Origin: Gordius sp. MW1
Lineage: Eukaryota; Nematomorpha; Gordioida; Gordea; Gordiidae
Reading direction: 5' to 3'
Assembly: GCA_964036665.1 (NCBI GenBank)
Contig: OZ038530.1
Span: 8,260,501 to 8,324,500 of the forward strand
Length of the DNA: 64,000 nucleotides
Below are positions 2,054 through 26,940 of this stretch, piece after piece. Every line of letters starts with the position of its first letter. Position 1 is the first letter of the stretch. A program made the translations under genes and the position numbers. The notes beneath the pieces are model-generated. The model was not told the origin of the DNA. It saw nothing but the letters and a program-made list of their open reading frames with translations, and made no database searches.

Positions 2054-5000
2054 TTTTGGCAAGGATTCTAGGGCTGAAGACAGTTCGGACCTTCGAGCGT
2101 GCAATTTTTTCTTGATTTGAGATCTTTTATCCGCTACGACTGCTAACAAATTGTACCTTATCTCCCGACTACATTCTAAGGATGGACTATTAAAATTCAA
2201 AATGAATAAATAGATTATACTAGACAAGTTGCCAAAAAAATTTTTGGTATAAAAGTAATCAGTCGGGCCTATAAACATAAAAATTTAAATTTGGCGAGTT
2301 AAAAAATTAAAGCCATCTAGCGGTCAATAGCTAATCTATTTGTGAAAGCAAAATAAAAGTCTTTTATAGAGGCATAAGTCCACAGCAATTAAAAACGCAT
2401 ATCCACAGCAAGTATTGAAAAAGTACAAGTTAAACAGGACGGACAACCAAAAGCGAACCCATAAATTGCATAGCAATTAATATAATTACTTGGATGTAGC
2501 GTTTATTCTTTCGGACAGGATAGATCGGAACTTATCGGTCCAGGACTCGTTTTCTTGCCACTTGCCTGTAATTTAATTAGAAACCATAAAAATTTATATA
2601 ACTTGAGTTTCTTAAAGAAGATAGAAATTCCCCTTCAAAATTTTAGTACAAAATAAATATCCAGCCTTTTAAATGTTTTCCATATCAATTCATTTTGTTG
2701 TTATACGCATTAGAGATCTGCAGGCCGGCCCGCCCGTACTCGTTTTCAAAACTTCAAGACCCGTCCGAGCCCGCCCGTAATTTTTTTTTCAACACTTTAG
2801 GCCCATCCGAGCCCGTCCGTAAATTTCCAGGCCCGTTCGTACCCGTTTATAAAAACGTCAGGCCCGCTCAAGCCCGTTTAATTTTTTTTAAAAAATCTCC
2901 GCGCCTTGCCCAATTCATCTAAAATTTGGCATAATTTTATTTTATGACATATTCATAAAAAAACATCAATAAAAATTAATATGTAAAAATAATAAATCAT
3001 CAATTATTTCCGCAGAATACACCTAAAAAATTTAAATATAGTACTTTATATTACTATAAAAAATTACATGAGAATATTCCACTTTCAACAATTTACTTGT
3101 ATTGGATTAATTTAAGTTAATACCTACACTTAAGAAGTTAGAATTCGGTAATACCATTAATTTAAAATAATCTAATAAATTTACATGAGTATTTAACTTT
3201 CAATAAGCAGTTTACATAGAATTGGTTAATTTATATGGGTTAATGCACCTAAGTCTTAGATTAGAACAAAAGTATTTATTAAATTATATGGCCTTTAATT
3301 ATACCAGTAAAATTTGTAATAAAATTAAACACAAAAATTTTGGTGCATTGTAACTAAATAATTGAACTTACTTATAAAAGAATATACGAAGCTATAATCT
3401 TAAATTATGTAAACGAAAATCTCAAGCAAATAGAATAAAAATGTTTTAAAGTCAAATTTAGCGTTTGAAAAAGGAATAAATGCTACAGGATTTACAAAAA
3501 TTAAGCAATTAATAATCTATATATTTAATAAAAATTATATATTTATATGATTGTTTGACTTTTAAGGACCTTTGAATTCCATGACCGTTTATATAATTTA
3601 GCCCGTTCAAGCCCGTTAAAAAAATCTCAGGCACGCCCGAGCCCGTTCCATTAATTGTTAAGCCCGTCCGGGCCCGGCCCGTTAAAATTTTTATAATATA
3701 AAGCCCGTCCGTACCCGCCCGCGGGCCGGGCCTGCCCGTGCAGATCTCTAATGCGCATTGGTCCCATAAAATAGCTTGTAAATCCAGACATGAGTGTATT
3801 CGACAGAGTGTGGAGGGAGGTTTAAAAAGTTTCAACACAATGGTGTAAGTGAATAAAATTTAGCCCTGGTTCCATAAAATTAAAAAAACAAGCCAAAATA
3901 ATAAATTTACACATTTACGACTTATTTTAAAATTTTAGATCTGGGACCTTTATTTTGCACGTGGCTCTAAAAAAGTCAAACATGTATATGAAAAATACAA
4001 AAATAATGCCCCCCCCCTCCCCGTGCATGCTAATTTAGTTATCTATAAATTTATTCCTGCCAATAATAACCAATCCAACATTTTACTTCATTATATAAAA
4101 AAAAGAAGAGATTACTCATTATTTAACTATACCAAACTAATTTTTAAAAAGATTGTACATTTTTTGTCTACTTTTGCATTTACCATTTTTAATAATGTAG
4201 ACTTTTTAAGTCTGTCTATACCTGGAGCATAAAATTGAGATACCCTAAAAAAACTAACTCACATAAACTTATAAAGTTGCATACCATGATTGATTGGATA
4301 TGGTTTGAGGCCATCCAATTCATACAGGGTTCCAGAGATGGGTACAAAACTGACATAATGAAAAGAGTCATCCTCACTAGCACTCAGAGTAGTGCTATTA
4401 TTATTTCCACAGCTACTGACAAATGAGACGGGGGTTGAATTAAAATGTGATAATGGGGAATTTATTGTTGTAACTGGTTGTTTTGGAGATAGTATGGCGG
4501 GAGTGGGAGGGGAACTGGCTGCATTTGGATTTGTAGTATGTGGTAAGATTGTTGATTTATCTTGGAACATAGAATTGTTGTCTTTTAGGTGTGGATCATG
4601 ATTCTTTTGAGGCGATGAAATGATAGGTGATGGAAACTTTGAAAGAAACGAATGGTGATGATGATGCCAGTCTCTTCTATATAAATTGTACAGCTTAAGT
4701 GAAACAAATTAGTGCTATTAAATTTATGTTCAGCATTCATAATTAAATGACAAATGATAAAATAAAACTAGAATTTTCTACATCTAATTATTATCTTTAA
4801 TAGTAAAAAGTGTAAAGGTATGATTAAAAACAAAATTATTCTGCTATAGTATACATTTATGAATTCTTTCTTTAATTTTATAAATGTTCTTCAGGGTCAG
4901 AATAAAATAATTAAAATATTTTAATTAACTTTTATACTATTTAATTAAAAATTGGATAATACTTAGCATGCTTGTTATGAGCTTGGGCCAATTCTTCCAT

Positions 5001-6370: not shown

Positions 6371-8069
6371 CAGAGACTTGCACGGGGGGCGCGAGGCCCG
6401 GCCCGGAAAAACCCGGGCCCGGGCAATTTTGAGGCTTTAAAATTCCAGGCTGAGTCGGGCCTAATTCATAAATTATAGGTCCGGCCCAGGATAATTTAGA
6501 AGTAGTAGCCTAAATAGTCTTTTATTCTGTTTAAAACAATAATTACTAAAAAATTAATTAATTACAAGTTTTTGATTCATTCATTTGCGCTTTTTCTGAT
6601 ATACAAACAATTGAGTATGGAACAACAAAAATCTACTCCTAATAAATGAAAAAAGTAAGAAAAATTTTTATAAAGTAAAGGAAATTGAGATCTACATAAA
6701 GTTAAAGATCAACGAGAAAAAATAGAAATATTTGAATGGTGGAAAGGAAAGTACGCCTCTGGGAAATATTCGAATCGAGATTCGATTCGAAGGTCTAAAT
6801 CTCGAGAATATATACCTGATGAGATTCGAAAATCCGAATCAAATCTTTAAAAAGGGATTCAAAAAATTTTTTATACTTGATAGTTATTTTAAATATACAA
6901 GACGAAAATAATTAAGCTATTTTCATCTTTCCGCAAATTAGTTATATCCCCGATCACTAAATTAAATTTTGTAAGAATACCCAAAATATAAAAACAGCAC
7001 TTTACATAGAATATGGGGTTCTTCAAAAAAAAATTCGAATATTTTTGCTAACATTTTACGTCAACTATTATTTAATGTTTATTATTATTTATGTACATAT
7101 AACTTTAACATAAATCATTAAACTATAAATAATATATTCTGATATGCATTAACCTTATATGCGAAGATTTTATTTGTATACATAAACATTATTTATAATA
7201 AAACAAGATAATAACCCGTTGTACGAGTCCCGAAACTAAATAATAGATAAACTCTAATTAATGCCATCTAGGCGAAATTTTTAATAAGAGACTATATTAA
7301 TTTAAATAATTTTGATACTGAAGAATAAAAATAAGTTAATGGTTTGGGACCATAATAAATCATCGAATTTAAAACTTGAAATCATCGTGTAAATTTTTTA
7401 TATAACAAATACAAACTCAATAAAATATCTATATTTTATAATTTTCGCCTTTAATATTTTTATATTCAATCTTTGCATTTTGATGAATAAATTCATTTAT
7501 AGAGATATTTAGAAATTAAAAAACTTGAAAAATATTCAAATCGAATTCGAATCTTAAAATTTTTTTCGAATCGAATTCGAATCCTTATTTTATTATGCGA
7601 TGACTTTCGAATCAAATATTTATTCAAATAAAATTTTCGAATCCGAATCCAATAATCAAAATATTTGACGAATCGAAATCCAGAGGCGTAGTGGAAAGAC
7701 CACAGTGGTCAATTTCTAGCGCTTAGCTCCCTTGTTTTAAGATTTTTGACGCCTGCTTCATCTGCCTCGAGTGAGAGGTGTCTTTCGTTAGCGGGCCGGA
7801 TTTATGAAGACCGGAGAACAAGTTTAAAGGCGGAAATTTTTGATGCCTATTTTTTGCATCAAAATAATTCCATTACGATTTATATGTGTGTTTTATTTTT
7901 TAATTGAAAATTTTACCAAAATTAAGTTTTATTAAATTTCTGCAATTATTTGTGGCCGGGCCTTGTTTTTAACGATGCTAAAATTCGGGCCCGGGCCGGG
8001 CCTGATTTTTTCCATTTTAAATTTCGGGCCCGGGCCGGGTCTTAAAAAAATCGATTTTGCAGATCTCTA
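6371..8069. mobile_element. Non-autonomous hAT-like element with GGCCCGGGC sub-termini
   Basis: Left end CAGAGACTTGCACGGG, right end (reversed) TAGAGATCTGCA. Flanking 8-mers TATATGAC (6363-6370) and CATATGAC (8070-8077) differ at one position. GC-rich GCCCGGCCCGG/CCCGGGCCC clusters sit at 6395-6495 and 7950-8042 in mirror orientation inside an AT-rich body. It is a close cousin of the element at 2711-3750 and carries another element inside it (6752-7689). No transposase is seen. Confidence 0.75.
6752..7689. mobile_element. Nested element with ATTCGAATC sub-terminal repeats
   Basis: Inverted ends ACGCCTCTGG (left) and CCAGAGGCGT (right) bound about 940 bp. Next to each end are many copies of TCGAATC/GATTCGAAT-type words (6769-6845 and 7540-7675). 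The flanks share GGAAAG, a possible worn duplication; a TA target is an alternative. It sits wholly inside the GC-ended hAT-like element at 6371-8069, so it inserted later. Confidence 0.6.
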
Positions 8070-14871: not shown

Positions 14872-14876
14872 ATCGC

Positions 14877-15027
14877 TGTAATGATTGTGTATTTGCATGA
14901 TATAGTTTTATTATAAATACTTTTAAGTTCGATATACCTTGTGGAATATATATATTCTTTTTGTTACATGTGATCTAAATTAGAAAAATAAAACTTACCA
15001 CTTGAGAGCAATACGTAATATATTTTA
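14877..15027 (+). repeat. 5' LTR of element A
   Basis: Starts TGTAATGATTGTG and ends ATATATTTTA. It matches the 3' copy (18925-19076) almost base for base apart from scattered changes and a one-base length difference, which suggests fairly recent insertion. Confidence 0.88.
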
Positions 15028-15059
15028 TTGGCGCGGTAATGGAAATTGGAACAATACCA

Positions 15060-15835
15060 CCATATAAGGTATGAGATAATATCTCTACATATATATTAAC
15101 TATTACAAATATATTTGATGCCAAAAATGTTACCAAGGACATCAGAAAGAAGTTGATACTTGGGTATATGGGACAACACAATGTGGAATCCATAATAAAC
15201 TTTCCTTATCCTAAGGATGTTATATCTTTGGATTATGAGGAATTTATCAAATTGATGAAGAAGGTATTTGCTCATAAAACAACTCTTTTTTATTCTAGGA
15301 TCCTTTTTATGAGATGCATAAGGAGACCTGAAACTCATACAGAATATGTGTCAAGATTAAAATCTGTTTCAGAAAATTGCAACTTCAAAACAAATCTGGA
15401 CGAGAGACTGCGCGATCAAATGTTATGTGGCCTTCAAAATTTAACATTAGAGATTCAAGTTAGAACTCAATGGCCTGAAGGTGTAAATAATGCTGGTGAA
15501 TTTATATCTTTTAATGATATATATAATTTAGCTGAATCTATGAAAACTAATAGGGAATTAAACACATCACAAGAGATAAACAAAATACAAAAAAACACCA
15601 AATTCTAAATACACAGATAAAAAAGTTACAAACAAACAAAATTTCATAAGCAAGTGCTCTAGGTGTGGTAAGTCACATCCAAGCAATAGATGTGATGCTT
15701 ATAACAAGGTGTGCTATAAATGTAACAAGAAGAATCATTAGGCTAAATTTTGTAAAAGTTTAAAGGAGGTAAATCATATTATCAATTCTATTGAAATAGT
15801 TTATGATGTTAACAATATTACCCAATTCAAACCTT
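15060..15835 (+). pseudogene. gag of element A
   Basis: The main open part (15153-15608) is a retrotransposon Gag with capsid-like sequence (MRCIRRPETHTEYVSRLK, NLAESM). One frameshift near 15600 leads to two CCHC-type zinc knuckles: CSRCGKSHPSNRC (about 15656-15694) and CYKCNKKNH followed by a stop where the knuckle continues to C (about 15714-15755). The start upstream of 15153 is in another frame. Gag packages the element RNA. Confidence 0.8.
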
Positions 15836-15870
15836 AACTCAATGTTGTCATCAACAATAAAACTGTTGAA

Positions 15871-18660
15871 ATGTTGTACGATACGGGATCTTGTGTCAGC
15901 CTAATAAATAAGAAGATATATAATATTATTAATAAACCACAATTACATACCTGCCAAAAGATCAAGGCTTTGGGAAACAACCCTGTGTCAATTTCTGGTC
16001 AAATTGAAGTTTGTGTAAAATTCAATAACATGACATTGAAACTTCCAGCTATCGTTACAAATGAGGAAGAGGAACCAATATTTGGATTAAATTGGATGCA
16101 GGCATTTAATTTAAAACTCCCTATTCAAGTTACAATAAATTCGATTAATTATCAACCTGAAAATGCATTGATTGAGAAATATGGGGAGATATTTAATGAC
16201 AGCATGGGTTGTATAAAGAATTATGAGGTAAGTATTTTTTTGAAGGAAGAAGCAAAGCCAATAGCTTGTCCTGCGCGGAGAGTTCCTTTCCCGCTGCGTA
16301 AGAAAGTAGAAGAGGAACTAAAAAGATTGTTAAATGAAGATGTTATTGAAGAGGTAGACCCATCAGTTACAGCAATCCAATGGGCAACGCCTATAGTAAA
16401 TGTAGTTAAGTCAAATGGCTCAATTCGGATATGCGGGGATTTTCGTGCAATTATAAATTCTCACTTAACTTTAAACAATTATTTGCTACCAACCTTTGAA
16501 TGTCTTAATTATAAAGATTGCAGGAGGCCAAAAGTATACAGTCATGGATTTGCGGGATGCATACTTACAGATGAAGGTCGAGAGAGAATCATGACATTAC
16601 CTCACAATAGCAACTCATATGGGTTATTATAGAACTACCATTCGGATTATCAATAGCTCCGAATTTATTTCGGGGGGGGGGGGGAAATCTATTGGATGGC
16701 ATACCTCACGTGGGTGTTTTATCAGACGATATCATCGTAATTGGAGCAACAGAACAGGAGCATATTAAAAATTTAAATGAGGTAGTACAAAGAATCCACC
16801 AGGCTGGGATAAAAGTAAGAAAGGAGAAGGTGAAATTCTTCCAAACATCAGTAACTTACTTGGGCCATATAATTGACGCTTCAGGGATCCATCCAACCGA
16901 AGAAAGAGTGGAAGCGATAAAAAAATTCAAAATTCCTACGAACAGGAAGGAACTCCGTTCTTTATTAGGATTGGTTAACTACCAAGAAAATTTTATCCCG
17001 CAGCTACATGAAAAGTGCACACCACTATATGCTATCACCGATTCTCTAGTTCAATGGCGTTGGACGAAGAAAGAACAGAAGATATTTGACGAGGTGAAAA
17101 GTCTTTTATTAGCTACAGATACACTAGTGCCATATTCGTTGGACTTAACATTAGTCTTATCCGTAGACGCATCTGATTCGGGGTTAGGAGCCATACTAAC
17201 ACATGTATTTCCCGAAGGTATGGAAAAACCGATAGCCTATGCTTCACGCACGTTGAGCGAATCTGAAAAGCGTTACTCAACGATTGATCGGGAAGCTAGA
17301 GCGATCGTCTATGGTGTCGAAAAATTTAATCAATATGTACGTGGACGGAAATTCACGTTAATGACGGATCATAAGCCCTTAGAGCGATTGTTTAGAAATA
17401 ATCGCGATTTACCTAAAGTGGTCAATAACAGATTAGTTCGATGGGCATTATTTTTAAATACGTATCAATATAAAATTAAATACAGATCGGGTAAATCAAA
17501 CCAATGCGCAGATGCTTTATCAAGACTCCCAAATCCTACAAATAATGACACCAAACACATAAATAACATAAGCCTATTAATGTTGGATGATTTGAAATTA
17601 GATCACAACACATTAAGAAACTTTATCAAACGTGATTCGTTGTGCTGCGAATTAATTTCGTCAATGAACCGGGAACGGAGACTCGAGTTAAAAAAATGTC
17701 GATTTGATTTACGACCTTATTATAATCGTAGAGATGAATTATCATTCGAGGACGGATTATTATGTTGTGGAAATCGTCTGATTATACCAAATAAACTCCG
17801 AAGGCTTGTTTTAAAGATATTACATCAAGGTAATCCAGGGATTTCGGGAATGTTAAGTTTGGCAAGATATTATGTGTGGTGGCCTGGGTTAGCCAAAGAT
17901 ATTGAATATTTTGTAAAAGAATGTGACGCCTACCAAGAAGTACGACTAGCCGAGACAGAAGTACCTCTATATTCGTGGTCCTTACCATAACGAAATTGGG
18001 ACCGAGTGCATATTGATATCGCAGGACCAGTAGAAGGAATTTATTGGCTAGTATTAGTTGATGCCTTATCAAAGTGGGTAGAAGTCGCCACGTTAACATC
18101 TATTAAAGGACCACAAATAATTCGCCAGTTACGGTATTGGTTTTGTAGGTTTGGTATCCCATCACAAATTGTATCCGATAATGGACCTCAATTTGTTGGT
18201 GGTGAATTCGCTAAATTTTGCTCAAACAATAACATTAAGCATATATTCTCTTCACCTTATCACCCGAAAACAAATGGGTTAGCAGAACGAACAATTCGGA
18301 CATTAAAATCTAGGTATTATGCTGCAAGGAAAGAAGGTAGGGATAAGGAAATCTGTCTACTACAAATACTACTGACCTATCGAAATACGCCTCATAATAC
18401 TACAGGTAAAGCTGCATCAGTAATGCTAATGGGAAAAGATTAAGGACGGCGATAGATTTAATTCGATTCGATCCTAGGGATAAATGGAGAGAAAGATTGG
18501 CAAAGCAAAAATTTTATCATGATCGTAAAATCAAAATCGGGAATTCTGGTCGGGCGATCTGATATGGATTAAAAATGAAATAAACCCGGTTGGTATAAAG
18601 GCGGAATTGTTGAACTAAAAGGGGAACATTCTTTTAGTGTACGAACTGATAATGGTTTCC
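15871..18660 (+). pseudogene. pol of element A: protease, RT, RNase H, integrase
   Basis: Protease starts LYDTGSCVSLINK. RT follows (ARRVPFPLRKKVEEEL, NGSIRICGDFRAIINS) but frame is lost around 16500-16690, where a run of 13 G sits. RT resumes with a catalytic box that reads LSDD instead of YLDD (about 16720). RNase H (VDASDSGLGAIL, STIDREARAIVYGVEKF, TDHKPLERL) and integrase follow; an in-frame stop at 17988 breaks the integrase. Its DDE residues are seen in VHIDIAGP, SDNGPQFVGG and NGLAERTIR. After 18443 the C-terminal part is frameshifted. A short near-duplication (CTACTTTAAGAAGGTCAAAT, about 18776 and 18846) lies before the 3' LTR. Confidence 0.88.
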
Positions 18661-18924
18661 GAAGAATACACGCGGATCAATTAAGATCTAGATATAGGTC
18701 TCGATACCAACGACAGAGAATAGAACCGACGTTAGTAACGTACCGAATATGCAGCCGGAGGTTCAATTGGAAGCTACTACTTTAAGAAGGTCAAATACCG
18801 ATGTTAGTAACGTACCGAATAACCAGAGGTTCAATTAGAAGCTACTACTTTGAGAAGGTCAAATAGAAGACCGATACCGCCTTTAAGGTATCATGATGAG
18901 TACGATCTTTAAGATAAGGAGAAA

Positions 18925-19076
18925 TGTAATGGTTGTGTATTTGTATGATATACGTTTTATTATAAATACTTTTAAATTCGATATACCTTGTGGAATATAT
19001 ATGTTCTTTTTGTTACATGTGATCTAAATTAGAATAATAAAACTTACCACTTAAGAGCAATATCTAATATATTTCA
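18925..19076 (+). repeat. 3' LTR of element A
   Basis: TGTAATGGTTGTG to ATATATTTCA, 152 bp. It ends directly on ATCGC, which is shared with the next element. Confidence 0.88.
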
Positions 19077-19081
19077 ATCGC

Positions 19082-19215
19082 TGATACGTGTCAACGCAAT
19101 TCGTTTATTAGATAAAGAATGAACGCCATTCCAGAATATTCAAATCATATATGGTTGTCGATAAAACACGAACGATAATTACAATTCGATGTTACAAACA
19201 TAAAATAGTACAACA
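19082..19215 (-). repeat. 3' LTR of element B
   Basis: On the minus strand it starts TGTTGTACTATTTTATG and ends GACACGTATCA, 134 bp, and matches 22274-22409 closely. Confidence 0.88.
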
Positions 19216-19229
19216 TCTCTCCCCGCTTA

Positions 19230-19568
19230 ATTATTTACATCCTCACATCTCTTCAATCAATCTACGTGGCGGTTTTTTGATTCAATCCTTCCTTCTTAGG
19301 AAAACATTTTCGTTCTCCGGTGTATCTATTTCAGCTGGCATTAATTCCTCTTGTACTGACTGTTCAAATACCAATGAGGCTTATCTCGACATTTGTTGAT
19401 CATGCGTTTCCTCCACCTCTTCTTGAAATTTCTCCACTGGTATCGATGCCGCTGAACTTAGTGCCTGTTGATCTTTGACTTCTTCTTCCCTCCTCCTTAA
19501 TTGGTCCGCAGGCTTCCGTAAGACTTTATTATTACTTTCTACATCGTACGACAACAAGCCTTTCCTAG
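19230..19568 (-). other. 3' internal region of element B
   Basis: Sequence between the end of integrase and the 3' LTR. On the minus strand it reads as low-complexity Glu/Lys/Gln-rich fragments with stops, probably the decayed C-terminal end of pol. No separate gene is supported. Confidence 0.4.
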
Positions 19569-19919
19569 CTAATATTTGACCTTTTCGCCACTAAACGTTA
19601 ATTCATTTTTCACCCAAACCGGATCATTAAATTTGAAATTCCTTGAATGAGCCGTCCTATCGTGGTGGTTGGTTTGTTTATCAATCTGACGTTCTAAATT
19701 AGTTCGAGGATTTGGTCGAGACCCATCTAGCATGGTCCGGTTCCTTCGACCAAGTAGCATCTTCGACGGCGACCTACCTGTTGAACTATGTTCGGACAAT
19801 CTGTGTGTAGATAGAATCTCATTCATACAATCCTCAGGATCCTTGATGTCTTCTCTGGGTGCGCTTTGTTCTAATGCATGTTTCAGCACATCCATTGGTT
19901 TTGGGATGATACGGGGTTG
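19569..19919 (-). pseudogene. C-terminal part of the integrase of element B
   Basis: From the junction at about 19919 the minus strand reads STPYHPKTNGCAETCIRTK, the catalytic-Glu region of a Ty3 integrase. After frameshifts it reads STGRSPSKMLLGRRNRTMLD and FKFNDPVWVKNE, the usual integrase C-terminal zone. Similar segments occur in element A (SSPYHPKTNGLAE) and element C. The N-terminal zinc-binding and first two catalytic Asp regions are absent. Confidence 0.85.
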
Positions 19920-20735
19920 AATAATAGCCGGAATAGTAATCAGGGTACCCAAAATTTCCAGCATAATAGCCAGAATAATCATAGTTGACGTAATTGTTGC
20001 CACCATAGCCTTGATAGTAGAGAGTTTTGTTTCCAACCAGCATTGGCTTGGTTGTAATTAATTTGACTGGCTTGCTTTGCTGAGGTGCTTTGCTGGATGG
20101 TGTAGCCTTTTATACATCACACTCTTTGCCTTTGATGACAATTTTAGAGTTCTTAGTTTTCCTGTACAATTTCTGGATTATCAAATGCAAGAAAGCAACA
20201 TTTTCTCTTTTGATTCTTTACTTTATCAATAGGCTGCTCAATTTTTTTAATATTGACATATTTATCAAAAATAGCTTTTATCTCATCTTCTGTGGTGGTG
20301 CGTAAAAGCTCTCTACCAGGTCTACTTTAAGCTCTTTTAGGATCGATTTGTTTACCATTAATAACATGAGGCCCAGATGCAATTAAAATTTCAACAGCTT
20401 CAACGGTTTCAAATAAAACAAAGCCAAATTTTCGTGAATTCCCTGTGTGAGGATCCGTCTTAATATTAGCATCAATTACGTTACCAAATTTGGTGAGGTA
20501 TGTTTTAAGATCATTTCTGTAGTTTTCCAGCTAATCCCGCCAATGAACAATTTTCGTTCATCATCATCTTTTTTTGTTGTATTTATGGTTTCCCTTTTAG
20601 AGAACCCGTCACCTCCGCCATTTTGGTCTGACTTAAAATTTTGATCATTTTGAAATTCCATTGGTTGATTTTGATCAGAATTGAATTCATTATTTCTGTG
20701 ATGTGCATTTTCTTGCTCATTTAAGGTATTTTTGC
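19920..20735 (-). pseudogene. Captured intronless hnRNP (Squid/hrp40-like) segment
   Basis: The minus strand encodes a two-RRM hnRNP with no introns. An Asn/Gln/Asp-rich lead is followed by RRM1 with RNP2 KLFIGGISWKTTE (about 20553) and RNP1 RKFGFVLFETVEA (about 20434), ending GKQIDPKRA. RRM2 lacks its first strand but has TEDEIKAIFDKYVNIKKIE, PIDKVKNQKRKCCFLAF and KGKECDV. The tail is the Gly/Tyr-rich end (QGYGGNN, YDYSGYYAGNFGYPDYY). This layout matches Squid/hrp40-type proteins that bind and localise mRNA. It is fused in frame to RT at its start and to integrase at its end. Damage: one base lost near 20515, TAA at about 20328 and two or more breaks near 20115-20160. Confidence 0.88.
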
Positions 20736-21420
20736 AATCTCCACAAGATCTAATAACACCATTGTTTTTTCTCACATATACAGTTGGTGTAGCCCATTCA
20801 ATTCCAATTTTAGTAGGGTCCACTTTTTCAATTATGTTAGTCGCAACCAATCTTTCAAGCTCCATCTCAATCGGTTTTCTTAAGGGAAAGAAAACACGAC
20901 GGGCAGGAATTATTTTACCTCATGCATCTGTTTTTACATTTAGATGAACTGGATTGCTATTGATTTCTCCGTGACTGTTATCCAAATTTTCTGAAAATTC
21001 TTTAATTAAATTATTTAATCTGCTACGAATGATCAAATTGTCTATTTTCGTGCTCGAGTTCCTATTGCTATTAGATGCCACTTGTTGAACATTATATATT
21101 TTTACACACCTAGGAATCTTTAAACCAAATTTTTGTATCCATGGCAACCCAAATAAGGAGCACCCGATGCTTTCGTAACAATAACAGGAACTATGTGACT
21201 GTTATGTCCAAGTCCCACTTTGATATCTGTCTCGCCTAAAACATCTAATTTTTGGTGGCCATAAATGTGAAATTATATGTTGGCCTCAGTAGCGGCTTTC
21301 CAATCCGCTTCCATATAACTTCATTTATGACCGATACCTGGGCACCGGTGTCGTCGAGATGCGACATCATTTAAATTGGCGTCGATAGTCGCTCTTTTCG
21401 ATCAATTTTTATATGTGGTT
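20736..21420 (-). pseudogene. Protease and N-terminal RT of element B
   Basis: The protease motif DDTGAQVSVINEVIW is at about 21360-21315. RT begins near 20890 with PLRKPIEMELERLVATNII, VDPTKIGIEWATPTVY and NNGVIRSCGDCKNTLN, the first RT blocks of the same lineage as element A. RT stops at block 2: the polymerase catalytic box and RNase H are absent and host hnRNP sequence follows in the same frame. Confidence 0.85.
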
Positions 21421-21429
21421 GATGGAATT

Positions 21430-22255
21430 TATTTCGGCAAATTCTTCTAATTCTAAATCATCAAACACTTTATTTATCCTTTTTATTTCTGCAAGCTCGA
21501 GAGAAATGACAAACTTTTTTACAATTGAAACATGCTACCATAGTCGCTGTACATTTATTACGAGCATGTGATCTCCCACATCGATAACATCTTGAAGAAC
21601 TATTAGCCTCCTGGTGCTCTCTATTAATACTTTTAACATTACGACTATCTTTGATTTTATTAATATTCGCGGTGTTAACTTCGTTTTCCGCTCTTTCCCA
21701 TGCCAACGCCATATCCAAAATTTGTTTAAACGTAAGGCATCTACCATCATGTTCATGATCCATCATACTTGGATATTTACTTCGAATTTCAACTTCCAAT
21801 CTTGGATAACGAATTCCAGCTATAAATTGGTCACGCAGACGTTCTTCGACATCTTTTTAAATTTTGCTAGCTGAGCCGTTTCTTTCAAACGTTTTGTAAA
21901 TTCCACAACAGTCTCTCCTTTAGCTCTTATAATCCGAATGAAATCGAGTCTTGACGCTTTGACAAGTTTCCAAAATTTCATCAAAACTGGCCTCTAAGAT
22001 ATTTTTTGGAAATAAAATTTTTTGACTTGAATAACGTTGGCGATTCCAAAGTATGCTAAGAATAATTTTTTTAAAATACGCTTCAGTTCTTCCCCCTCGG
22101 CATGAATTCCTTTAGCCAACAATGTATACTTTACATTGTCGAAATATTCTTCCACTGGAATCTCCGGAGCGAATGGTTGTAGAACGATTTTTCATATATC
22201 GACTACGTTGTCAGTATCAGTTCCATTTTTTATAGCATCATTCATCCTTGAATAA
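21430..22255 (-). pseudogene. gag of element B
   Basis: Open part 21470-21799 encodes a Gag end with two zinc knuckles: CYRCGRSHARNKC and CFNCKKVCHFSRAC. Upstream, in broken frames toward 22250, are capsid-like fragments (RLRDQFIAGIRY-type at about 21840-21800). Frameshifts and stops are present. Confidence 0.8.
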
Positions 22256-22273
22256 TAAGTTTCTCGTCGCCAA

Positions 22274-22409
22274 TGTTACGTGTCAACGCGATTCGTTTAT
22301 TAGATAAAGAATGAAGGCAATTCCAGAATATTTAAATCATATATGGTTGTTGATAAAACACGAACGATAATTACAATTCGATGTTACAAACATAAAATAG
22401 TTCATAACA
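22274..22409 (-). repeat. 5' LTR of element B
   Basis: On the minus strand TGTTATGAACTATTTTATG to GACACGTAACA, 136 bp, ending next to the primer-site-like TTGGCGACGAGAAAC. Confidence 0.88.
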
Positions 22410-22414
22410 ATCGC

Positions 22415-23353: not shown

Positions 23354-23383
23354 GTGGCGACGTGAGCAGAAACCTACGCGGAG

Positions 23384-24010
23384 ATGCAGAAGTATAAAAT
23401 ATCGGAGAACATTGACGCTTTAATAACACAATTTGAGCTATTCCTAAGGAGCAATAAGCCTGAGACAGACGAGCTAAAAGCGGCTCTGCTATTAACCAGC
23501 CTCGAGGGGGAGGCATTCCAATTAATATTAGAGGACTAAAGACTTCAAAATTTGTAAGGAATTACATATGAAGATGCTAAAAATCGCCTAAGAAAATTGT
23601 TCCAGAGGAATTCATGCGCGAGGCAAAGAAATATCTCAAAGGTTCGACAAGGCCAGGGAAGGACGATAGACGCGTACGCAAATAGACTCAAGGCTGGAGC
23701 TAACAGCTGCAACTTCGGGAACGAAGAATTGCAGAACAGAATTGTTGACCAATTCATTATAGGATTACGAGATAGAGGCTTACAGGCAAGGTTGTTGGCT
23801 GAAAATGGCAATAAATGGAACCGCCTACGAGAGCTGGCGGTAACGGCCGAGACGATAAAGGGGGGGGGGGCTAAGCACCTTGCAGGACGGGTCCGAAGAG
23901 GCGTGGAGCGTAGTGGCGAGACGAGAAGCGTGGCCTGGGCTGGTCCGGATTCCCAGCTTAAACCATGCTTTAGATGTGTTAACAGTAGATATATATATTA
24001 ATAACGAATT
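23384..24010 (+). pseudogene. gag of element C
   Basis: The first ATG after the primer site (23384) opens QKYKISENIDALITQFELF, a Gag N-terminus, stopping near 23537. It continues in another frame (23597-24001) with RQGQGRTIDAYANRLK, LQNRIVDQFIIGLRD and LRELAVTAETIK, typical of Ty3 Gag. A G-run at 23861 shifts the frame, and only a remnant CFRC of the zinc knuckle is seen near 23966. Confidence 0.8.
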
Positions 24011-24089
24011 GTTTCATCGAAAATACCGGCGCGAAGATGGACGAAGGAGATCCCACGCAACAAGGAGCCCGTCCCGACGGTGTACGCGT

Positions 24090-26940
24090 ACGGCCACGAG
24101 GAAATAACGATCGTAGCCAAGGTGCAAGCCGATGTCCGAATGGGTAACACGAGAAAACAGCTGTCGTTATTGTTAGCAAACGTAGCTGGGCCGCCGTTGT
24201 GCGGGATTGATTGGATCCAAGAATTCGAGCCTGAAATTGGGCGATGAATTCGTTGGAACTCGAGAGCTGCGGCCGAACGGTTCGCCGGCAATTACATGGA
24301 AAGACCGAAGGATACCAAGTCCGCTATCCGGCACGTGATGAAGCAATGGGATGGCCAGCTAAACGAATTCCCAAAAGCAGTCAAAGGGTAATAACGGTGG
24401 AAGTACCGTTAAAAAAGGGCATAGATCCCGTTTTGATCCCCGCTCGAAGAGTGCCGATGGCGTGGAAGAAAGAAGTAAAAGAAGAGCTGAATAAATGGGT
24501 CAGAGACGGGGTGATAGAAACAATCAATTTCTCAAGATGAGCCAGCCCAGTGGTACCCGTAAAAAAAAGCGATGGGAGCCTACGATTATGCATAGATTAC
24601 CGGTTTACGATAAATAAAAACGTACAAGGTTTGTTGTACCCCTTACCCAAAATCGACGATTTGTTATATAAACTCGATAACGCGTGTTGTTTTACTAAGC
24701 TGGATCTAACTAAAGCGTACCTACAGCTTGAATTAGGTCCAGAGACGAGCCAACGATTCACTATCTCCACGCACAAGGGCTTGTTTAAAGTGAATCGGAT
24801 GCCTTTTGGCTTAAATTGTGCCGCGGCTATTTTCCAAAAAACTATGGATTAAATATTAGGAGGCATGGAGGGGGTAGCGGTATATATCGACGATATATTA
24901 ATTGTAGGGGAAACGGAAGAAATCCACAACGAACGGTTACTCAAAGTACTAGAAACGTTACAAAAATGGGGGTTCGTGCTAAACATTTCCAAGAGCATCT
25001 TGTGGGCTAAGGAAGTAACATTTTTGGGATACGTAATAAGTAACATGGGGATTCAAATCAACGACAATAAAGCCGAATTAGTCAAGCAGGAAATTTAACG
25101 AACAAAAATGAAATAAAATCGTTCCTTGGGTTAACAGCATATTTTTCGAAGTTCATTAAGGACTACGCCTATATCGTGCACCCGATTCAAAAACTCATGA
25201 AAAAAACGTGACGTACCACTGGGTGGAGAACAACAAGGCGCATTTGAAGCAATCAAATCCGCGCTTACGAAAGCCCCCGTACTGGCATACTTTAATGGAG
25301 ATTGGGAGACTGGCCTGGTGGTAGACGCTTCTGGTACAGGGTTAGGGGCCATCTTACAGCAACGTGCACCAGGGGAGAATTGGAGAGTGGTGGCCTATGC
25401 TTCAAGAGCGTTAAATCATAGCGAAAGCCGGTATTCGACGATCGAACGAAAGGCCCTTGCGGTGGTTTATAAGCTAAAAAAGTTCAATGAATATATACAA
25501 GGACGAAGTTACTATTATGACGGATCATAGACCCCTAGTATATATATTTGATCAGAGCAAAAGGGGCAAGGAACAATGGTCACCACGTCTAACTAGGTGG
25601 GCGCTCATGGTATCAGGCTACACGACCAAGTTTGAGTACAAAAAGGGATCCGAAAACGCGGCAGATTTCTTGTCCAGAAAACCGAACGAAAACGCGTATC
25701 AGGTTAGCGAGGAATGCCAGAAAACTCGACAAATCCATTTATATCATTGGACGTAGTAAAACAACACACCTTGGTTGATCCCGGGCTAAGTTAAAAGAGT
25801 GGATGAGATGTAAACAAAACACAATGGTTACTTATGGTCTAAAACTCTCCTACGACAAAACACCTGCCAAAGTTACAAAAAACATAATATTTTACAAAGG
25901 GCGACGAATATTAATCCCGTCTTAGTTAAGAGGAGCGATCCCCCAAAGACTACATAGGGGCCACGTGGGTATCAAGCGATTGCAAGAAGTGGCGCGGCAG
26001 TATATATGGTGGCCTACTCTCGACGATGACTAATTGAGCGTAGCGAAAGGGTGCCGGAATGCAATTACACTGCCACGGCGGCGAAGAAGGCACCGTTGAT
26101 AGAGTGTCAACCTAGCCATAGACCGTGGGTTCAAGTACATATCGATATCATGGGTCCTCTTTCATACCTGGTGATGGTGGACAATAGCTCGAAATGTATA
26201 GAGGTGTTTAAATAAAAGACACCACATCGACCACCATTATTTAAAAACTCTCCGAAACGTTTGCTAGATTTGGAAATCCACCATGGTTACTATCAGATAA
26301 CGGCCCGCAATTCAAAGGGCAGGAATTACAGAAGTTTTGCAAAAACAGCGATGGACAGCTCCTTACCATCCTGCGTCTAACGGTCTGGCAGAAAAATATA
26401 TACGATTAATTAAGGAAGCCATTATTAGAAACGAGTCGGAAGTAGGGCTAAGTAGATTTTTGGAAAACCACAGATCTACTAAACACCCCACAATCAATAA
26501 AAGCCCAGCAGAGGTGATGCTAAAAAGGCCTATGCGAACCGAATGAGAGGTATTGAAGGAAACCATACCACAACAATGGTTAGAGACCGGGGACGCGGAT
26601 GTTCAACGTAGGAGACTTGGTTTGGGTACGCATGTTTTTGGGACCAAGCAAATGGGTAGAAGGCACGATAAAAGCCGAGACGTTAGTCGTTCCTACGATG
26701 TATGGGCACAGGGAAGAAAGCACCACCCACACGTGGATCATGTAAGGAAACGGAAAATCCTGGAATTGGACCACACTAGGACAAGAGAATGGGTGGCCGC
26801 TAAGGATATCATCAGAAAGGGAACAAATGCAAAACCGGGGAACAAGTGCTACAAGGAAATAAATTCAAAACCAGTCAGGAACGCCTAGAGAAGAATCTAA
26901 ATACCCACAGCGTAGTCGGAAACCGCCAGCATTCCTTAAG
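24090..26940 (+). pseudogene. pol of element C: protease remnant, RT, RNase H, integrase
   Basis: A protease C-terminus (LLANVAGPPLCGIDWIQEF) lies near 24165-24230. RT: ARRVPMAWKKEVKEELNKW, SDGSLRLCIDYR, FTKLDLTKAYLQLEL, MPFGLNCAAAIFQKTMD, then YIDDILIVGETEE, so the YIDD box is intact. RNase H: VDASGTGLGAIL, YSTIERKALAVVYKLKKF, TDHRPLVY. Integrase: HVDIMGPLSYLVMVD-like zone (about 26130-26185), DNGPQFKGQE (about 26297) and YHPASNGLAEKYIRLIKE (about 26352-26410). Stops at 24538, 24850, 25096 and 25528 and several frameshifts break it. Confidence 0.88.

Follow-up and report, generated by a model that had tools for sequence, protein, structure and literature searches.

The analysed window comprises 64,000 nucleotides of a Gordius sp. 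MW1 contig (OZ038530.1, positions 8,260,501 to 8,324,500), and positions given below without a contig name refer to it. Two LTR elements lie there back to back in opposite orientation, element A on the plus strand (14877-19076) and element B on the minus strand (19082-22409). The motif ATCGC occurs at 14872-14876, 19077-19081 and 22410-22414, which by eye gives the order ATCGC-A-ATCGC-B-ATCGC, and the later of the two insertions seems to have gone into precisely the 5-bp site of the earlier one. A location of element B inside the 3' LTR of element A was also considered and rejected, as B abuts A at the common ATCGC. The 3' part of element A features a 43-nt direct repeat (18755-18797 and 18823-18865, 93% identical). 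Further gag-protease-RT-like frames are found by eye on the plus strand at 23360-25100 and probably belong to another LTR element.

Element B has the TG...CA ends of an LTR element and carries a host hnRNP coding sequence between pol fragments. Its features, in the order of its own sense, are:

22410..22414, no strand: target site duplication (TSD) ATCGC, right of element B
22274..22409, minus strand: 5' LTR (TG...CA)
21090..22273, minus strand: leader, gag and protease region of backbone I, 87-95% identical to the non-chimeric relatives L028 and L029 in ten 120-nt bins
20722..21089, minus strand: end of the protease region and N-terminal RT fragment of backbone II, up to CGDCKNTL, 92-96% identical to the chimera L013 in three bins and 63-69% to backbone I, with an upstream limit resolved to the bin only
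19922..20721, minus strand: captured hnRNP cDNA, mRNA nt 46-872 of the parent gene on contig C8, first seven introns absent
20328..20557, minus strand: captured RRM1 (KLFIGGI ... RKFGFVLF), with a frameshift in the window copy and hand-set limits
20300..20301, minus strand: site of a 27-nt in-frame deletion that removes strand 1 of RRM2 (KVFIGGLDP), found in 18 of 19 copies and not in L020
19213..19921, minus strand: integrase remnant (STPYHPKTNG...) and 3' part of backbone I
19082..19212, minus strand: 3' LTR
19077..19081, no strand: TSD ATCGC, left of element B, which by eye doubles as the right TSD copy of element A

An earlier sequence-only reading had described a spliced hnRNP cDNA captured in frame inside this element, and the structural part of that description holds. 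The LTRs, 131-136 nt long, are 95% identical over 131 nt (7 differences in 131) and have ATCGC on both sides. ORF 20476-20919 leads from RT (CGDCKNTLN) into the hnRNP lead and the start of RRM1, the minus-strand frame reading VYVRKNNGVIRSCGDCKNTL up to the RT/hnRNP junction and NEQENAHHRNNEFNS after it. At the other end, ORF 19834-20109 leads from the hnRNP tail (PDYYSGYY) into integrase as FGYPDYYSGY/YSTPYHPKTNG. Over 795 aligned bases the hnRNP part matches the spliced parent at 93.7%, and it is broken by indels of 1, 27, 2, 2 and 5 nt and by two in-frame stops (codons 147 and 229). The RNP1 motif of RRM1 reads, by eye, RKFGFVLF where the parent has RGFGFVLF. Pfam found no RRM in five of the window's own broken frames, and RRM_1 is present in the parent and in the chimeric copy L013.

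The parent gene (L009) is located on contig C8 at 7710442-7711939 and appeared as three pieces when the genome was searched with the hnRNP part. It has a 326-codon CDS with eight introns, all GT-AG and 37-484 nt long. The encoded protein features two RRM_1 domains (Pfam) and a Gly/Tyr-rich tail, and its best match among solved structures is the hnRNP D-like 7zir (E 9.6e-52). The two RRM_1 domains and the hnRNP D-like match point to an assignment to the A/B/D group that would fit the "Squid-like" label first given to the captured sequence. The two-RRM organisation claimed at the outset is that of the parent, whereas RRM2 of the window copy lacks the strand KVFIGGLDP through the 27-nt deletion. 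All eight introns are gone from the copies that span mRNA nt 46-935 and the first seven from the window copy (nt 46-872), which also confirms the claimed absence of introns in host sequence lying in the sense of the element. Such intron loss speaks against capture of genomic DNA.

The genome search with the hnRNP part, as proposed in the sequence-only reading, recovered the intron-bearing parent on C8 and at least 19 chimeric places (20 candidates scored, 22 match rows), a family count that is a lower bound; all 19 chimeric copies were examined (18 fetched and the window). Nineteen loci exclude a chance match or a single assembly join, the latter having been named as a possible refutation. The hnRNP part of these copies is 89.5-93.7% identical to the parent mRNA over aligned bases, and its extent defines several structural types. 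Backbone I chimeras (the window, L010-L012) carry nt 46-872 and backbone II-short chimeras (L013-L019) nt 46 to about 821 (819-824). The fullest copy, L020, has a backbone II and spans mRNA nt 46-935 with the eight introns gone; L021 reads by eye as reaching nt 934-935 too, in degraded sequence. Type III copies (L022-L025 and L027) carry nt 161 to about 935, and in L026 the 5' end is that of type III, the LTR is that of backbone II and the hnRNP part stops near nt 745. Two of the copies, L019 and L021, are incomplete. The 5' junction thus lies at mRNA nt 46 in 13 of the 19 copies and at nt 161-163 in the other six, while six copies (L020, L022-L025 and L027) have the 3' capture junction at nt 934-935. 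The 27 nt encoding KVFIGGLDP are kept only in L020, so that RRM2 is without its first strand in the remaining 18, window included (the L010 alignment is untidy there).

In a parent-rooted ML tree of the hnRNP part L020 splits first, with a support of 97 for the rest together. The structural types form clades, with ultrafast bootstrap values of 100 for III and of 83 for I and 93 for II-short, the latter two under the usual 95 mark; L021 is placed beside III (68). The basal position of L020 and its lack of the 27-nt deletion indicate that one capture, in backbone II, most likely founded the family. Structure and sequence agree on one capture followed by trimming, and it is well supported that the family arose once and that L020 stands closest to its root. 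Fifteen copies have both LTRs, and in eight of them, among which the window, a 5-bp duplication is found beside the TG...CA ends, different in each; as the search covered several ends and L011 gave two candidates, an occasional chance match is possible. No 5-bp duplication was found in the other seven of the 15, several end positions having been tried, and four of the 19 copies are without an LTR pair. LTR divergences in the family range from 0 to 0.089 (K2P; 69-143 aligned nt). The eight different duplications and this range of divergence suggest separate insertions over an extended period. L020 itself has LTRs with 0 differences in 69 aligned nt and is flanked by a direct repeat of about 390 nt (plus-strand positions 3464-3856 and 7402-7798 of the locus, 92-93% identity).

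Identity profiles in 120-nt bins, made for three of the 19 chimeric copies, revealed that backbones are mosaic. The first 1320 nt of the window element are 87-95% identical to non-chimeric relatives with backbone I. From about 1320 nt to the hnRNP part the element is 92-96% identical to the backbone II chimera L013 and 65-69, 63 and 67-68% to backbone I. At the step near sense nt 1320 identity to backbone I drops from 93/91% to 65/69%, and that to backbone II sequences rises from 68-74 to 90-96%. Sequence 3' of the hnRNP part is again of backbone I, 89-97% identical to L028. Element B is thus probably a later recombinant in which an RT-hnRNP cassette derived from II sits within backbone I, its STPYHPKTNG junction being secondary. 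The type III copy L023 has the order I, II, hnRNP, II, I, and the type III LTR is a hybrid whose first half matches I and second half II.

The four non-chimeric relatives that were fetched (L028-L031) all continue from the 5' junction point into further RT, with integrase downstream; L028 reads CGDFKVTLNPFLLKDYHILPTF there. This finding runs counter to the idea, raised earlier as a possible refutation, that the hnRNP part belongs to the pol of other elements. By Pfam, RT is followed by RNase H and then by integrase both in L028 and in element A, and integrase is present in L031, which seems to be without RNase H; the frames of L028-L031 are interrupted to varying degrees. Membership in Ty3-type elements (Metaviridae) is in line with the protease of L013 (where CCHC is below cut-off), the TG...CA LTR ends and the 5-bp TSD. 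The complete RT, RNase H and integrase of an autonomous element are replaced by hnRNP in the chimeras. An element at C3:25229412-25230541 has type I gag matches beside a backbone II protease, as type III does, and no hnRNP match; it may represent a recombinant that predates the capture, or else a deletion.

The 5' capture junction lies inside RT, where the element sequence ...CCTTAAA meets the mRNA sequence AATGAGC with a 2-nt overlap. The 3' capture junction connects mRNA nt 935 with backbone II at RTLLDW, which belongs to the C-terminal portion of integrase, and leaves about one base unaccounted for. Microhomology is slight, 2 nt at the 5' end and none clear at the 3' end. Looked at by eye, the capture junctions feature no UTR, no poly-A and no duplication of their own or internal to the element. 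Junctions inside the CDS, without UTR or poly-A and with the intervening element stretch missing, fit two template switches between co-packaged RNAs, a process described for LTR elements in the available portions of PMC5408686 and PMC13317346.

The reading that we favour, with a probability of about 0.9, is that a backbone II Ty3-type element captured a spliced hnRNP mRNA and that the product then spread by mobilisation in trans and repeated template switching. The element would have co-packaged a spliced mRNA of the hnRNP A/B/D type, and the polymerase would have switched from element RNA to mRNA and back during reverse transcription. Codons 16-311 of the hnRNP would in this way have taken the place of the stretch from the interior of RT to C-terminal integrase, with both ends in frame. 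The resulting non-autonomous chimera, which has no RNase H and only a minor part of RT and of integrase, was presumably mobilised by relatives that keep these domains. Later switches would have carried the RT-hnRNP cassette into backbone I, as in the window, and into the I/II mosaic backbone III, and would have shortened the hnRNP part at its 3' end, to nt 872 or to about nt 821. The structural steps shared by the copies kept the frame, with a coding content little constrained and individual copies decaying. The sequence-only reading had likewise proposed capture of a spliced mRNA, transposition of the whole chimera with help from a relative and later decay, all in agreement with the intron loss, the loci, the junctions and the indels and stops. 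Its template switching during reverse transcription fits the junction structure, but capture probably took place in backbone II and not in the own lineage of element B. Its RT(part)-hnRNP-integrase(part) architecture is real; the original cDNA was probably longer, however (nt 46-935), and the integrase junction of the window is secondary.

The kept frame and the presence of the cassette in three backbones would also be explained if the hnRNP module were a working accessory domain of a Gag-protease-hnRNP polyprotein, RRM1 and the low-complexity tail helping to package, traffic or stabilise the element RNA. This is considered unlikely, even though frame retention argues for it. Shared structural changes keep the frame in seven of seven cases against 13 of 63 private indels of the hnRNP part (Fisher 6.5e-5), in a tally made by hand with events picked after seeing the data and with junctions compared to small indels, which are unlike kinds. 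Of the seven shared events, four are junctions (both of those made by the capture, and the 3' ones of types I and II-short) and three are deletions (that of 27 nt and two of type III). A 42-nt deletion (L021, L024 and L027), frame-keeping as well, was left out of both indel counts; it is probably recurrent since it lies by eye between direct repeats and is scattered on the tree. The 5' junction is locally in frame in 18 of the 18 copies read (all but L021) and the 3' junction in 16 of 17 (L021 and L026 not read), L019 being out through private indels.

Substitutions tell less in favour of a working protein, the tree-based counts giving no clear purifying selection in the hnRNP part. In RRM1, internal branches carry 4 nonsynonymous and 5 synonymous changes and terminal branches 85 (74 nonsynonymous, 11 stop) to 25 (P 0.044, post hoc and uncorrected), which would favour a role of this domain. 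For the whole hnRNP part, in contrast, omega on inner branches is 0.69 (P 0.098), the changes there being 38 nonsynonymous (42.1 expected), 18 synonymous (13.7 expected) and 3 stops (3.2 expected); of the three stops, the one at codon 263 is spurious and comes from reading two neighbouring changes one at a time. No significant difference separates inner from terminal branches, either in nonsynonymous and synonymous changes taken together (P 0.088) or in stops (P 0.13). In the same tree omega is 0.90 on terminal branches, and the value of 0.35 on the stem mixes the host gene's own evolution with that of the element. RRM2, whose first strand is lost in 18 of the 19 copies, is unconstrained on inner branches (15 nonsynonymous, 3 synonymous, 1 stop). 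The upstream protease/RT fragment has 23 nonsynonymous to 4 synonymous changes on inner branches, an omega of 1.9 not different from 1, in a tree built from one outgroup and 14 of the 19 chimeras, in which the type III copies cover only part of the fragment. Stops common to pairs of copies, E186 in L010 and L011 and Q293 in L023 and L025, suggest that transposition took place without a full ORF, a parallel origin of these stops being the alternative. It may be that an open message was favoured, and a role of the hnRNP module as protein is possible, if unproven. It is a shade less probable than the accessory domain as such that the lineage traded RT and integrase for a host RNA-binding module that aids packaging or movement, and that the module was for this reason kept in frame and spread across three backbones.

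Capture with subsequent spread in trans is likewise preferred over a role at the RNA level, in which transcripts or small RNAs of the chimeras target or buffer the host hnRNP gene. This is very improbable, although 19 copies are 89.5-93.7% identical to the parent mRNA and retrocopy-derived silencing RNAs against a parent gene were reported for Plutella Masc (available portion of PMC9674220). Least credible of all is a LINE-type processed pseudogene that inserted into an LTR element and moved with it thereafter: the copy is intronless, as a pseudogene of this kind would be, but the capture junctions lie within the CDS (nt 46 and 935) and run straight into pol, they feature by eye none of the poly-A or own duplication of the separate retropseudogene against which the sequence-only reading had weighed its claim, and the RT-to-integrase stretch of non-chimeric relatives is missing.

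Host cDNA inside LTR elements is already known, the process being better known from plants and vertebrate retroviruses. Oncogene-transducing retroviruses also are LTR-bearing retroelements that carry host sequence, unlike the present Ty3-type elements in being vertebrate rather than invertebrate. Here, as in Bs1-like elements and in LTR-mediated retroposition, an intronless host CDS lies between LTRs with a TSD, and an intron-bearing parent is present in the genome. Bs1 of maize is described in the available portion of PMC13317346 as an LTR element with pieces of three host genes, none full-length. It shares with the chimeras the presence of host coding pieces inside an LTR element and a hybrid reading frame, but it is a plant element; in the animal studied here one hnRNP is nearly complete (codons 16-311 of 326 in L020, before private indels) and its cassette is present in three backbones. 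LTR-mediated retroposition in metazoans (Tan et al. 2016, as cited in the available portions of PMC5408686 and PMC8232201) similarly yields an LTR-flanked intronless copy by switching between element RNA and cellular mRNA. Set beside what these citing texts tell of it, the hnRNP copies are in frame at both ends, occupy at least 19 loci and were reshuffled by recombination. Crocodilian endogenous retroviruses underwent gene capture, according to the available portion of PMC4299795, and also carry host sequence in an LTR-bearing retroelement, though not in Ty3-type elements of an invertebrate. In the open-licence literature, by title and start of abstract, no capture of an hnRNP by an LTR retrotransposon and, for animals, no transfer of a captured cassette from one element backbone to another were found. 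With the parent, a near-root copy, intermediates and recombinants in one genome, the steps of capture and spread can be read directly. The preserved frames, set against unconstrained substitutions, make it possible to test here whether a retroelement benefits from the host RNA-binding domains that it has captured.

Other observations concern the genome at large. An exact 30-nt run of TTAGG, the arthropod telomere repeat, was searched for and not found. COX1 on contig C12 is open only with TGA read as a residue, and under the invertebrate mitochondrial code it presumably yields the expected protein; the host is accordingly regarded as an invertebrate. COX1-like repeats with in-frame TGA also occur on a contig of nuclear size, at C4:356383-379815 and C4:1458719-1486890, with equal scores, in opposite orientation and about 1.1 Mb apart; they are read as nuclear mitochondrial copies, and their arrangement is perhaps an inverted duplication or an assembly feature.
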